A DNA stretch of 64,000 nt from Ilyobacter polytropus DSM 2926 (lineage in GTDB: Bacteria > Fusobacteriota > Fusobacteriia > Fusobacteriales > Fusobacteriaceae). Both the position numbers and the translations under genes were made by a program. This document shows positions 3,263 through 57,181 of this stretch, one piece after another (the first letter of the stretch is position 1; every line of letters begins with the position of its first letter). The notes beneath the pieces were generated by a model that had not been told where the DNA came from, did not search any database, and worked only from the letters and a program-made list of their open reading frames with translations. The stretch is taken from the NCBI RefSeq assembly GCF_000165505.1, contig NC_014633.1, forward strand, positions 744,001-808,000, in the 5' to 3' direction.

Positions 3263-6200
3263 CTAAAAAGTCTGACGTTTTTCTCTTTTCACCTTGTATA
3301 CATTCCCCAATACATCCACTTGGTATTTTTTTATGTTCTTGACAGTTTTTATCCCGATTCTCATTTGAATTTTCCCATCCTGAGTGTCTATAGTAGCCGC
3401 ACCTGTAGATGTATCCATTCCCCGATAGTACCCCAAAACTTCACTTAAATTAACTTCAGGAATTTCAGTTTTAGTAAGTTTATTATCATTTTTTATAGAT
3501 TTACTTTTACCAAATTCAATTTCAATCAAATCATTTGGATAGAATGAATATAAAAACTCAAAGCTACCGTCTATCAAATCCCAATCTTTATAGGGCTTTC
3601 CATTTATTGCCCTATTGGGAAGTTCTTTAAGCAGGGTTTGGTGAACATAAATTGGAACCGTGTAAAATTTTCCGTTTTTCCTAAAAACGTCTATCCTGAC
3701 CATGCTTCCATTAGATGCTTGTCCTCCGTTAACATAAACTCCGACATTTTGTTTTTCCTCTACTTTTATTCCTCTGACAAGTGGTCCTCTTTTGCCACTG
3801 TTAGTCGGTTTATAAAAAGGTTCCGCAAAGGCTTTTTCAGGTTTGTCATCATATTCTTCCAGTCTATTTTTTAGTGCTTCATAGAGTTTTCTATCCGTAT
3901 CTCTCCCCTGCATTTTTTCCAAGTCTTTCAACTTTATTGAATTTAAGGGTTTCTTTGATACTGCTATCTGATTACTTATTTTTTTGCTGCTTCTTATTGT
4001 TTCTTGGTGGGCCTGGCCCTTTACCCCACGGTTAGGCATCCTAGACACAAACACAGGTCTTAATTTTTCTATAAACCCTTCTTCGTAGTTAAACCATCCC
4101 AAATACCTCTTATCTGAGAGCAGATTATAAAATTCTTCTCTGGGATTTTCACTTTCAAGTCTTTTTTGTAGTTCCAAATCAAAACCACTCCAAGGCATTG
4201 GAAAACGGGTGTCTTTTACTTCTTCAAAATAAACTTCTCCTGTCTCTTCATCTGCGTGGTATTCGATACTTGGAATTACATCTTTACAATTTTTTAATTC
4301 TTTGTACCTTGAAATGTTTGATATATTATTTATTGCCTTTTGATCTGTCACAGCAACCACAGCTGCGTCAAGTGCATGATGTAAATCTCCATTTTCTCTG
4401 ACTTTGTTAAGCCTCCATCTTGCTCTCAGCTGTGCTGTCAATTGTCCTGGTATCATAAACACCCTTTTTTTAGGGGAATCATCCCTGTACTCTAGAGCGT
4501 TTTCTAAATAGTTGGCTACAAATCTGGATATATATCTTGTGTCATTCAAAGCTCTTGATTTCCAATCTTTGTTGTCCTCCCTGGTAAATTTTTCCTTTAA
4601 AAGATTTGATTTCTTTCGAGGGTGGATTTTCATTGCTTTTACATTTAGAACAAAAGTATCCCAGTCTCTTCCTTGACGATCGAAATACTCTTTTGGAAGT
4701 AGATTGCTCTTTTTTCGATTCTCGCCAGAAAGTACCAAAACTTTATTACTATAGGAATCATCCATACTTCTACTGTAAGGTATTATATGGTCAATATCTG
4801 TCATACTTTCGTCTAATATTACTTCACTTAAACTCAACTCTTTTCTGGAATAAGCACATCTTCCCTCTTGTTCTTGATACAGCCTGTATTTAAGTAGTAA
4901 CTTTCCTTTTACATTTTTTATTCCAAATTCTTCAGATATAAATTTTTTAGTTTTCTCATTTTCAAGCTCTCTTTTTTTATTCTCTTTTATAATGGTTTGC
5001 CTGTCGTCATATGATTTTGCAAGGTCTCTTGCCACTTCTACATGGATTGTATGTGGAGTCCCGTATTTTCTTATTATGGCATTTACCACTTTCCTCGTCT
5101 GGGATATTGCTCTTAGTACGACTGGATTTGCTATCAAATCCTTATCTACCACAGGAAGTAACTCCCCTCTTTTAAACTTTATTCCATTATTCTTATAATC
5201 GTAGTCTGCCTTTTCACAAGCCTCATTATAGGACAATCCTTTTTCTAAATAAGGCAGTATTTTTTTTATTGCTTTCAAAGACAGATTTAAGGTTCCAGAA
5301 AACTCCTCCGAAAGAAGGATTTCAATATCTTCTCTACTTAGTTCTAGTTTTTTCAAATTTGACTCAATAGTTTTATCACTCTTGTTGAAAGTTAATATTT
5401 CTATTATTTTATCTAGTTTACTTTTGTCTTCTTCTATTTCACTTTTGAGTTTTTCTGATAAATTAAGTTTTTTAATCGTATAATTTCCAATTAATGATAT
5501 GAATTTGGTTTTTTCAGTTTTTTTATCCTGCTTTTCGTCCTTGCTGTAATTTAAATCCCCAAACCTTTCTTCTTCTTTTAAATACAGTATTTTTCTTAAC
5601 TTTTCATATCTTACCTCTTTTTTTAAATAGACCTCTTTTTCAACAATGTCCCTTTCTTCTTCTGTTAATGGCCTTTTACCTGACAGTCCCACTATCCTAA
5701 AATTATTTAGTTTTTGGAGAAATACAAACCTCTCACCACTCCAAGTGTTTTTTGCAGTTCTTTTTTCAGAGGATTCGAAGGTACAATTACCTATCATTTT
5801 AGCTATCTGCCCTATTTCACTATAATAAGGAGAAGGCTTGCTTGGACCTTCATCAAAATTCCTTTGGCTGTTGAAAACCTCTATATATTTTTCCAAAACA
5901 TCATCAGTAAAGTGAGTATTACCAAGTTCCTTTTGCTTAGCCTGTATTTTTCTAACCTCATCTTCTAATAATTTTCTTGAAAAAGAAAAAAGATAACTTC
6001 CTGCTTTATTTCTTACATGAGTATTAAATTTAGGATCTTTCGCTACCATGTCTCCAATTGTTAAATATCCTTTCTCTTCCATAATCTTTTTATTTTCCTG
6101 TATTCCGCTTAACAGTTTTCCTGTATCATCTGCGTTTCTATCAGTTTTTCTAAAAGATTTGAACCCTCTTCTTTTAGCTATATGAAGGAGTATTTGAGCT

Positions 6201-15916: not shown

Positions 15917-15989
15917 GAGAAATTTTAAAAGCCTAAAAAAAGCCTCTACATCTCTCGTCCCCGCAAGTGATATTGACAATATTATTTTT

Positions 15990-16140
15990 AAGGCAGGTCT
16001 CCTGGCTCAGCTTCATCCTACTAGCACCCTTCCCAGATTTTAATCCAGTGGGTAATTTGCCTTCGTCTGCATTACAGTGGCGGGACCGCGGGAGTCTTTC
16101 ACTCCTCTTCCCTTTTAATTCCAAAGTTGGAAAACCTTAA
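15990..16140 (-). promoter_or_regulatory. Cobalamin riboswitch
   Basis: Read on the minus strand the leader has the conserved GCCACTGTAA core near 16075 and the B12 box AGCCAGGAGACCTGCC (15993-16008), with peripheral stems such as GAGGAGTG/CACTCC sequences around 16090-16115. It heads the exported cbiK gene, with a terminator hairpin downstream, so corrinoid binding should lower expression. Confidence 0.95.
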
Positions 16141-16163
16141 AAATGTATTCACTTTCAGTAAAA

Positions 16164-43660: not shown

Positions 43661-43691
43661 ACCTGGAATGGTTAAAAAACCAAAAGTATAT

Positions 43692-43756
43692 GGCCATAGT
43701 AAGTCGTTTACGGCGACTTGTAGAGACTCTTCACCTTATTAGAAGATTATATGGAG
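43692..43756 (-). promoter_or_regulatory. Purine riboswitch, guanine type
   Basis: On the minus strand: CCATATAATC, loop AATAAGG, AGTCTCTAC, L3 CCGTAAA within AAGTCG/CGACTT, then TTACTATGG closing P1. The ligand-pairing base (position 74 in xpt numbering) is C, as in guanine binders. The J2/3 base 48 is C instead of the usual U. A TTGACA box lies upstream (43802-43807). Confidence 0.92.
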
Positions 43757-43907
43757 ATTTCACAATTTTTTCACTTTATATTATTATAAGATTAGTTATA
43801 TTGTCAAGTTATATTTGATAGAATTTGCTGTTCAGATAATTTACATAGCTTTGCGTTATGGTAAAAATATATATATGGAAATTTATAAAGACCTGTATTT
43901 TCTAGTT

Positions 43908-49025: not shown

Positions 49026-49170
49026 ACGAAGGTATAGGGAGAGAGCTGATTAATCAGCCACCGAAGGAGTAAAACTCTCAGGTAAAAGGACCTATTCTGG
49101 ACGAGCCTCTGGAGAGAACTGTTTAGTCAGTCGCCGAAGGAGTAATACTCTCAGGTACAATGGACAGAGG
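49026..49170 (+). promoter_or_regulatory. Tandem glycine riboswitch
   Basis: Two aptamers lie in line. The first has GGGAGAG...GCCACCGAAGGAGTAAAACTCTCAGG, the second GGAGAG...GTCGCCGAAGGAGTAATACTCTCAGG followed by GGACAGAGG. These are the conserved glycine-aptamer cores. A terminator follows at 49193, as expected for a transcriptional switch that turns on with glycine. Confidence 0.96.
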
Positions 49171-54481: not shown

Positions 54482-55203
54482 TTTATTTTTATAGCTTTAC
54501 TAATGAGTTTTTCCAGTAAACCTGTGAGAATTATAAGATATATTGTCCATGCCAGCAGGGAGTCTGTCTCTATATTTATCCAGGCTGTATTCATTTCCCC
54601 CCCTATACCTCTTGGCAGACGACCTATAATCTCTGCTGTTGCCAAGACTTTCAAAGAAGAATTAGCAGTTATCTTTATCCCCCCCATGAGAGAAGAAAGC
54701 ATAGAGGGCAGCATTATTTTTGAAAACACCTGTTTTTCCTCTATCCCGTAGGCCGAGGCCATTTCCAGCAGTTTTTCATCGGTGCTCATAAGACCGTTAA
54801 ATGTATTTATTATTATCACTGGAAGTGTAAAGATACCCAGGATAAAATAAGGGATAATTTCAGAGGGAAACCAAAGTAAGGCCAAGAGAACCCATGATAT
54901 AACAGGAGTAGACTGAAGTATGGTTATAAATGGCCATAAAAAACTTTTTACTGTGCTGTTTTTAAAAATAAGCATTCCACAGAGAATTCCCAACGATACT
55001 GAAACTGAATAAGCCATAAAAAATCTGTATAAGGTGATGCATGTTTCTGCAATACCTTTTCCAGTCAGTATATTATTTCTAAAAACATTTAGAATACTTA
55101 TTGGAGAGGGCAAAATAAGAGGATCTAACTTCATAGAGATCCCCTGCCATACTATCAAAAGGAAAATTATTCCTTTAAAATTTTTACCAGGCATAAAATT
55201 CAT
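54463..55203 (-). CDS. ABC importer permease, SsuC type
   Basis: 246 residues with six predicted membrane helices; the coupling motif EMASAYGIEEKQVFSKIMLPSMLSSLMGGIKI is the BPD_transp_1 EAA loop. Overlaps both neighbours (20 bp with the binding-protein gene, 19 bp with the ATPase gene), a tightly coupled operon. The substrate class is sulfonate, nitrate or pyrimidine precursor by family; not resolvable. Confidence 0.92.
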   Translation of the reverse strand: MNFMPGKNFKGIIFLLIVWQGISMKLDPLILPSPISILNVFRNNILTGKGIAETCITLYRFFMAYSVSVSLGILCGMLIFKNSTVKSFLWPFITILQSTPVISWVLLALLWFPSEIIPYFILGIFTLPVIIINTFNGLMSTDEKLLEMASAYGIEEKQVFSKIMLPSMLSSLMGGIKITANSSLKVLATAEIIGRLPRGIGGEMNTAWINIETDSLLAWTIYLIILTGLLEKLISKAIKIKWGRYL

Positions 55204-56023
55204 CTCCAGGAAGTTTTATCCCCAAAGCATCTAGATAGTGCTCTACAGACTTTTTACATCCTGTATCTAAGGTGAGATTCATATATCTAACAGATTCTTC
55301 TAGGTCCCCTATACTTAGTTTCAAAGAAAATTCTTCGATTGCTCTTTCCAGAAGTTTTACTTCGTTTTTTCTTTCAAGAGCCTTTTTGTACTTCTCTATA
55401 ATTTTGTCTACCTCTATAGGGTTTTCATCATATACTTTACCCATAACAAATATCCCTACCTGGGGAATCTCTTTTCCCTTCCATAGATCCTTTAGCTCTG
55501 TCACTCTTTTAAAATTTTTATTTTTAGAAAGAACCATTGTAGCCAGTGGTTCCGGAAGAACCAGGTTATCTATTTTTCCTGCCATGGCAAGTTTTGCAAT
55601 CTCCCCTGAAGATCTATAACTTATATCAAGGGAAATGTTTTTCTTTTCCAGAATATTTTTCATAACTACATCTGGAGAAGATCCCTGTCCTCCTATATAA
55701 AGTTTCTTTCCCTCTAGATCCACTATTTTTTCTATATCCTTTGATAAAAAAGATAAAAGTCCCCTGCTTGTAATTCCTAAAAGTCTGATGTCTACCCCTT
55801 TATTATACAGTGTCGCCGCGACATTTACAGGAATTATATAAAGTTCACCTTTTTTTCTTATTATCTTTGGAACAACCTCTGTGGAGACATTTTGATAAAA
55901 GTTTATATTTATATCCTCTATAGCCAGCAACGGTATGCTAGGTGGTGCTTTAGGAGCATCTATTTCTAAACCCCATACAGCAAGTGACACAATCATAAAA
56001 ACAGATGCAATTATTTTCTTCAT
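55184..56023 (-). CDS. ABC importer substrate-binding protein, NMT1/SsuA type
   Basis: 279 residues with a signal peptide (MKKIIASVFMIVSLAVWG). The mature fold has the NMT1/THI5-like look: KAPPSIPLLAIED, NVAATLYNKGVDIRLLGITSRGLL, GKKLYIGGQGSSPDVVMKNILEKKN, and KIDNLVLPEPLATMVL (the LPEP hinge motif). Relatives bind aromatic precursors, sulfonates or thiamine pyrimidine. No lipobox Cys. It is first in the three-gene importer operon. Confidence 0.88.
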   Translation of the reverse strand: MKKIIASVFMIVSLAVWGLEIDAPKAPPSIPLLAIEDININFYQNVSTEVVPKIIRKKGELYIIPVNVAATLYNKGVDIRLLGITSRGLLSFLSKDIEKIVDLEGKKLYIGGQGSSPDVVMKNILEKKNISLDISYRSSGEIAKLAMAGKIDNLVLPEPLATMVLSKNKNFKRVTELKDLWKGKEIPQVGIFVMGKVYDENPIEVDKIIEKYKKALERKNEVKLLERAIEEFSLKLSIGDLEESVRYMNLTLDTGCKKSVEHYLDALGIKLPGDEFYAW

Positions 56024-56064: not shown

Positions 56065-56605
56065 GTTAAATTATTGAATTTACACAAACTTCCGTTACTT
56101 TTTCTTAATGAAAAGCACCCCAAGAGTGTTTCCTCCCTTCGGTCAGGGCATAACCAAAAATCAAGGCCTGTGAAAAATAAGCTAAATGCCTTCGGAAATC
56201 TAATAAGAATAATGAAACTCAGAAATTAAGTTTCTGAGAACCATAAAATATACTCGTATAACTCGTTATTTTATGGTCACTCGCTTCGCTCAGATAGTTG
56301 ATTTTTTCTAGAGATTTCTCTCAGTCATTCTTAACGCTTATTTTGTCAATGCCAAAAGAATTTCAAAAGATTAAAAAAAAGTCATTTGAAAATTTTGAAT
56401 TCCCCCTTTAAAAAATACCGTTAAGAAATCATCTTGTGAAATCCACTTTCATTGAAATAAGGAGGTTTACCGACTATATTTCAATAGAAAGTTAGTTCAG
56501 AAGGGATTTTAGGTATTTTTTAGGGGTGCCTTTTCTTTGGTTACTTTCTTTGGGCAAGCAAAGAAAGTAACACAGGTTTTGGATAAAGTCAGTAGTTTAT
56601 AAAAA
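56065..56605. repeat. About 540-bp noncoding structured element bounded by inverted repeat copies
   Basis: The left end carries an inverted copy of the dispersed repeat (GTTACTTTTTCTT, GAAAAGCACCCC at 56094-56121) and the right end a direct copy (AGGGGTGCCTTTTC at 56522-56535 then the hairpin at 56540-56571 and tail ACAGGTTTTGGATAAAG). Inside are stems CTCAGAAA/TTTCTGAG (56218-56238), CCATAAAATA/TATTTTATGG (56241-56276) and ATTGAAATA/TATTTCAAT (56451-56485). No open frame is supported. It fills the whole gap between the ABC operon and the PhnA-like gene. Confidence 0.65.
56540..56571 (+). repeat. Dispersed hairpin repeat, copy C
   Basis: GTTACTTTCTTTG and CAAAGAAAGTAAC form a perfect 13-bp stem around GGCAAG. 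It is the best-preserved of the copies in this window and is preceded by GGTGCCTTTTCTTTG. Confidence 0.9.
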
Positions 56606-56607
56606 CA

Positions 56608-57009
56608 TCAAATCTCTATTTTTTCAAGTAAAGACTCTACTTCTTCCTCTATATAAACTGTCTCTAGAGTTTCTTCTGCCCAGGTATACTTGTCTTTTAT
56701 CTTTCTCAAGGCATAAATCGCCACAGCTTTTACAATAGGTACCTCACTCCATACGGCAGAATTTAAAAATCTCAGATCATTTTCTCCAGCCTTGTTAAGA
56801 TTATCAAGTATTTTACTGCACTGCTCACATATAAACATACACTGCTCAAACTGAGGCTCTTCATTTATCGGCGGTACCTCGTAAATTTTCAGACTTTCAT
56901 TTTTAGCTTCACAAAGTTCGCAGCTTGATTTTGATCGTCTTGCCAGGTCTTTTCCAAAAAATAGTACCTTGCTTTTTCTTTCCCTGTCTCTATCTAAACC
57001 CTTTGCCAT
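56608..57009 (-). CDS. PhnA-like zinc-ribbon protein
   Basis: 133 residues. SSCELCEAKNESLKIYEVPP and MFICEQCSKIL give two CxxC pairs as in the N-terminal zinc ribbon of the PhnA/YjdM-like group. The C-terminal part (FLNSAVWSEVPIVKAVAIYALRKI) includes the VWSEVPIVKA stretch often seen in that group. The start at 57009 follows AAGGAGGCAAAAC; an upstream TTG (57027) would overlap that ribosome site and is rejected. Function is not known. Confidence 0.8.
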   Translation of the reverse strand: MAKGLDRDRERKSKVLFFGKDLARRSKSSCELCEAKNESLKIYEVPPINEEPQFEQCMFICEQCSKILDNLNKAGENDLRFLNSAVWSEVPIVKAVAIYALRKIKDKYTWAEETLETVYIEEEVESLLEKIEI

Positions 57010-57181
57010 GTTTTGCCTCCTTGACAACTATATTTTTATTCTGTTGATAATATTTAAAATCAAAAATTTCTGAGTTTAAAATTCTAAAATTATTTATAAA
57101 TTCATTATAACTTAAATTTTAAATTTTTGTGTTAAATTTATCTATAATTTTGATTCAATATATTGTTAAACTAAAAAAAAC

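Follow-up and report, generated by a model that had tools for sequence, protein, structure and literature searches.

Interspersed repeats of bacteria are usually treated as relics, the content of which is fixed. The described systems closest to the element analyzed here include MITEs and Tn3-derived TIMEs (PMC10969869, PMC4133298), with which it shares small size, lack of genes, terminal inverted repeats, and mosaic forms, being, like MITEs, a multi-copy, non-coding family. BOX elements of Streptococcus pneumoniae (PMC3049150), which consist of fixed end modules and a middle module of variable copy number, boxA-boxB(n)-boxC, are likewise dispersed, modular, folded, and non-coding, vary in size at fixed sites, and appear to be dormant. 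Inverted palindromes present in multiple phyla are found also among REP/BIME sequences and GTAG/CGTC-tagged palindromes (PMC3733652, PMC2817692). The stem-loop repeat families of 40 bacterial genomes (PMC2267715), a survey in which the main text does not mention Fusobacterium, are, judging by their description, of the same general class of intergenic folded repeats. In the literature search, no paper containing the motif strings concerned this element, and no Fusobacteria repeat paper described it.

The element is a variant of the interspersed-repeat or MITE kind and is MITE-like in its terminal inverted repeats, hairpin ends, and lack of genes. Its unusual parts are the exchange of content at fixed sites and an end hairpin that crosses phyla. 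Position and content evolve separately here: the sites are shared by congeners, whereas the interiors are swapped and flipped. The family offers a tractable system for asking what recognizes such hairpins, how short dispersed repeats recombine without wrecking the bacterial chromosome, and whether it is RNA or DNA folding that is selected.

The window, a stretch of 64,000 nucleotides, corresponds to positions 744001-808000 of chromosome II (C2) of Ilyobacter polytropus, the chromosomes I and II of which comprise 2,046,464 and 961,624 bp, respectively (PMC3035301), with a genome total here of 3,132,314 bp. The element copy occupies positions 56066-56603 of the window, between two minus-strand genes: on the left, an ABC-transporter binding-protein-like gene (ORF 55184-56023), the start of which faces the element, and on the right, a gene for a 139-aa protein (ORF 56608-57027), the stop of which faces it. 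The ORF list contains no ORF of at least 60 aa within this gap, in agreement with the original prediction that the gap holds no credible gene. The window also contains cobalamin (15975-16154) and purine (43677-43774) riboswitches and a tandem glycine aptamer pair (49026-49170).

The original observation is real and goes beyond what was described. The sequences taken for inverted copies at its ends, AAAAGCACCCC (56111-56121) and GGGGTGCCTTT (56523-56533), do match in inverted orientation (91% over 11 nt) but are internal arms; the actual boundaries of the repeat unit, 56066 and 56603, lie outside them, in TAAATTATTGAATTTA-type inverted repeats. The hairpin arm reported alongside holds up, GTTACTTTCTTTG/CAAAGAAAGTAAC (56540-56571) forming a hairpin of 13 perfectly matched base pairs; its left-hand copy, AAACTTCCGTTACTTT, pairs with AAAGTAACACAGGTTT over 16 nt (81%). 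At least three perfect interior stems had been claimed, and five are present, of 8-11 bp: ACCATAAAATA/TATTTTATGGT and TAAAAAATACC/GGTATTTTTTA (11 bp each), CTCAGAAA/TTTCTGAG (8 bp), and AAAATAAGC/GCTTATTTT and AAAAATCAA/TTGATTTTT (9 bp each). The folding energy of the segment is 6 s.d. under that of shuffled sequence (z -5.99; none of 100 shuffles folded as well); because of this value and the recurrence of the segment at some 40 further genomic places, the structure is not a matter of chance.

The window copy starts with the left inner terminal inverted repeat, the E arm TTAAATTATTGAATTTAC (56066-56083, plus strand), which is common to nearly all copies, in both orientations. It is followed by the left hairpin H1 (GTTACTTTTTCTTAATGAAAAG ... 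TAACCAAAAATCAAGG; 56094-56166, plus strand), which is interrupted by a 35-bp insert, X (CACCCC...CAGGGCA; 56116-56150, plus strand), the origin of the previously noted GAAAAGCACCCC arm; in copies without X (e.g., L066 and L021), H1 is unbroken. The half-module AS (56165-56353, plus strand; closing stem 56174-56182/56336-56344) holds insert Y, which is about 75 bp long and includes two perfect hairpins (56204-56278, plus strand). The half-module B (56402-56526, minus strand) is a single large compound hairpin closed by the TAAAAAATACC/GGTATTTTTTA stem. The copy ends with the right hairpin H2 and its conserved inner flank, GGGGTGCCTTTTCTTTGGTTACTTTCTTTGGGCAAGCAAAGAAAGTAAC (56523-56571, minus strand), which is the cross-phylum motif, and the right inner E arm GGATAAAGTCAGTAGTTTATAAA (56581-56603, minus strand).

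With the segment as the query, the genome of I. polytropus (G000) yielded 100 matching pieces at about 40 places; many copies are present also in two congeners (G001 and the sister species G002), and other Fusobacteriota showed mostly short matches. Alignment of the copies with their flanks revealed terminal inverted repeats with a better kept inner arm, TAAATTAYTGAATTTATCC, and a decayed outer arm, TTAACYTAAGTTGCTAC, seen in the better preserved copies. Inward, the shell thus runs from the outer arm through the inner arm ending in TAAATTAYTGAATTTATCC to the hairpin GTTACTTT...AAAGTAACCAAA; an exact pattern search for the shell palindrome without an interior gave no match. Between the shared end arms, every element consists of two different half-modules arranged tail to tail. 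We denoted the four types of halves AS (multi-stem module with hairpin variant a or b), B (compound hairpin with a GGGCAAGC-loop hairpin), C (CACGAAT...CACAGAG module), and D (CAGCCGTCCTACAG... module). The C module is tandemly amplified in G001 with a 120-bp period (C2:1191223-1191617 and C2:465401-465795), where it has 205 matches, compared with 29 and 51 in the other two genomes.

Halves were located by pattern searches with one anchor per type (reversed-pattern controls were all zero), four interrupted B hairpins were added by hand, and halves were paired by orientation and distance. The anchors allowed up to three mismatches and missed decayed halves, so that the recognized pairs, 59 in G000 (AS-B 17, AS-D 17, AS-C 12, C-D 7, and B-C 6) and 59 in G002 (AS-C 23, AS-B 15, B-C 14, AS-D 4, and C-D 3), are lower bounds. 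Pairs of like halves are absent from both genomes, against 16.3 and 18.0 expected under random pairing (0 of 20,000 shuffles). A pair of identical halves would amount to a long perfect palindrome that cells are likely to tolerate poorly, in which case only unlike pairs would persist. Palindrome avoidance is, however, not the full pairing rule because B and D, though unlike, never pair among the 59 + 59 recognized pairs; the rule may concern, in addition, compatible joints.

Orthologous sites were compared by searching the flanks of ten G000 copies in G001 and G002 and reading the matching intervals, and by searching the flanks of 33 G000 copies (one of these in the ten-copy set) in G002, where 30 could be placed and were checked against the anchor lists. 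The latter comparison automatically gave 16 sites as different and 4 as the same, and the ten unclear intervals were read, with less certainty, by eye. Both flank sets together with the orthologue of the window copy, L066, make up 40 sites in G002. Element sequence is still present at 39 of these, but the pair of halves is the same and in the same orientation at only 8; at 27 sites the pair is different, at 2 it is the same but inverted (L021/L114 and L055/L167), 2 sites retain a fragment only, and 1 is empty (L003/L108). Comparison of the empty site L108 with L003 permits a target duplication of 2-8 bp, a range that reflects the AT-palindromic target. Both the window copy and L066 have the AS-B pair, at 95% identity in the element versus 82-84% in the flanks, and L066 lacks X and Y; L118 and L119, which represent one site in two congeners, also differ in the presence of X and Y. 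The sites are by now virtually constant, and it is the interiors that are swapped, inverted, and newly combined in place. A gene-bearing version of the element at a lost site was considered and rejected: a 6.1-kb interval in G002 contains signaling-type genes and no end arms. At the L021 site in G001, the element (L113; G001:C4:590780-591733) lies some tens of bases off, in locally different sequence, and may have been inserted independently instead of arising by exchange.

The original prediction of a non-autonomous mobile element, which proposed a search for other copies and for empty sites in relatives, is supported by the dispersed multi-copy family in the genome itself and in congeners, the terminal inverted repeats, the lack of a gene, and the one empty site in G002. 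Of the findings named as refuting it, two, a lack of further copies and a lack of empty sites, are thereby contradicted. The two interchangeable halves, the fixed sites with swapped interiors, and the cross-phylum end hairpin go beyond it. They also set the family apart from the systems described above: unlike in MITEs and TIMEs, interiors differ at orthologous sites, and in place of the boxA/boxB/boxC order of BOX elements, which is not encountered here, the family has unlike halves that are re-assorted and inverted between inverted ends common to the copies, with an end hairpin shared across phyla.

The inserts are a further layer of variation. X is present in one and absent from the other of two orthologous copies in both L119/L118 and window/L066. 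Of the AS halves, 19 carry both X and Y, 3 X only, 4 Y only, and 38 neither (Fisher p 1e-9, a value that overstates independence, given the relatedness of the copies). B halves have X only in combination with another insert, W, which is about 75% like Y in reverse complement (both, 6; W only, 4; neither, 20), and X is found also inside D hairpins in G002 (L164 and L167). In the hairpins of these different halves, X lies immediately after AAAG. The D half of L167 (G002:C3:731330-732450) contains, besides X, another insert, about 55 bp long (TCATCCACTGGATAAGG...CTCCCTTA), possibly a third partner for X in addition to Y and W.

The AS halves combine subtypes a and b in fine-scale mosaics (e.g., aabba, abbbb, and aaaab), which, along with the exchange at constant sites, argues for recombination in place. 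The best explanation as a whole, which we hold to be reasonably probable, is an old non-autonomous MITE-like family the interiors of which are now shuffled in place by recombination. The family probably first spread by transposition via some transposase; a search covering the Y1 family found no transposase with these ends and, in contrast to MITEs and TIMEs, neither a parental transposase nor a clear target duplication was identified. Judging from the mosaics, the interiors were most likely swapped by homologous recombination or gene conversion among dispersed copies, for which the end arms, hairpins, and shared modules would provide the homology. Against this explanation, the 20-45 bp of homology that the end arms alone offer are few for ordinary recombination, and plain homologous recombination poorly explains X-type inserts at equivalent places in the dissimilar AS, B, and D halves. 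Concerted evolution within each genome was rejected: identity among B halves is 0.970-0.987 within and 0.973-0.980 between genomes, and halves equally alike within and between genomes are therefore held together by a common pool or by sequence constraint.

The position of X after AAAG in different halves, the replacement and inversion of interiors between fixed ends, and an end hairpin conserved across phyla to the letter, as for a protein-binding site, would all be compatible with an element that remains active, its modules being replaced or inserted at the end arms and hairpins by a dedicated recombinase or transposase through targeted transposition or cassette exchange. We consider this unlikely: no candidate enzyme emerged, the Y1 family being represented in the I. 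polytropus genome by IS200-type copies only, with no member detected in either Xanthocytophaga or the Selenomonadaceae MAG, and the mosaic junctions within modules resemble general recombination.

Covariation was assessed in the 38 AS halves without X or Y, against 500 shuffles and slid structures. In these halves, 99.2% of the cells are paired and five pairs changed on both sides; such double-sided changes exceed those in all of the 500 shuffles and far exceed those in the slid structures, although they represent few events rather than many because much of the signal comes from the two subtypes. Base pairing is kept within the halves, and therefore, folding, as DNA or RNA, probably matters. 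The covarying AS stems, the folding z of -6, the better conservation of the interior than of the flanks, and the intergenic position (all 38 sampled copies) would also suit a primarily structured RNA or a transcript-level regulatory element under selection, such as a UTR stabilizer or terminator, but we find this improbable given that interiors are found in opposite orientations next to the same genes (L021/L114), copies are not enriched between convergent genes (6 of 38), and no Rfam family matches the locus at the gathering score. The best Rfam hit, BTnc231 (20.1 bits versus 80.4 required; E 0.12), was rejected because it looked like chance on inspection, and a terminator role was rejected for the lack of convergent-gene bias. 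The large structured RNA of the original prediction may or may not apply: stems covary in one half, AS, but no Rfam family reaches the threshold.

A search of 84,980 species genomes detected the exact 33-bp end hairpin in 12 stretches from Xanthocytophaga, Selenomonadaceae MAGs, and Rudaea, which belong to Bacteroidota, Bacillota, and Gammaproteobacteria, respectively. In these groups, the 40-bp end hairpin is present in several identical copies. The match runs on inward into a TGC(C/A)TTT(T)CTTTG-type flank, which frequently has GGGG or GAGG before it. A 40-mer with up to three mismatches has 21, 21, and 30 copies in three Ilyobacter-group genomes and 3, 9, and 6 in Xanthocytophaga, Selenomonadaceae, and Rudaea genomes (reversed control, 0). 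Close variants of the hairpin occur at 18 and 6 places in replicons of Caballeronia sp. NK8 (best identity 87-90%), and a weaker variant is found in Pseudoalteromonas. In Rudaea, two copies have terminal inverted repeats of 75-87 nt, 432-460 bp apart, and inverted hairpins with CACCCC/GGGGTG inner flanks; in Caballeronia, hairpins lie 473 bp apart within a 27-bp inverted repeat; the Selenomonadaceae copies have only one such hairpin. The two-hairpin architecture bounded by terminal inverted repeats is common to unrelated hosts, including Rudaea and Caballeronia, and may reflect common descent, horizontal spread, or convergence on one binding protein. We can only tentatively entertain a cross-phylum class of bipartite hairpin-ended elements that share a single recognition hairpin (TTTCTTTGGTTACTTTCTTTG-loop-CAAAGAAAGTAAC); genomic sites would then be fixed sockets, and their cassettes would be exchanged by a conserved putative enzyme.

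Two inverted palindromes with a spacer, and hairpins that cross phyla, are reminiscent of REP/REPIN elements moved by a RAYT transposase, but such a mechanism is very unlikely here. Neither a GTAG nor a CGTC tag adjoins the hairpin, which has the inner flank CTTTTCTTTG (CTTTG) and the outer flank ACA; the palindromes stand at either end of elements of 500 bp that carry additional terminal repeats, a composite much longer than REP/BIME; and no associated RAYT was found, searches detecting no Y1 gene in two hairpin-bearing genomes and Rudaea having one 263-aa Y1 protein. A RAYT/REPIN origin was rejected because the Y1 genes of the I. polytropus genome encode 155-aa IS200-type proteins only. A phage or E. 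coli origin was rejected as well, neither phages nor E. coli genomes yielding a match. The C module had no match in plasmids, and 41 bp of the D end hairpin have an exact match in a Parabacteroides distasonis plasmid. Among 2.9 million viral contigs, a single one contains a degenerate hairpin (L174; IMGVR_UViG_3300021400_000027, 3334-3373). In Selenomonadaceae (L095-L097, L100, L102, and L103), the hairpin is preceded by a shared noncoding block with perfect stems and an AGGAT loop, e.g., TGAAACAGGATGTTTCA; the blocks in Rudaea have the same AGGAT loop (GGACAGGATGTCC and GCGCGCAGGATGCGCGC).
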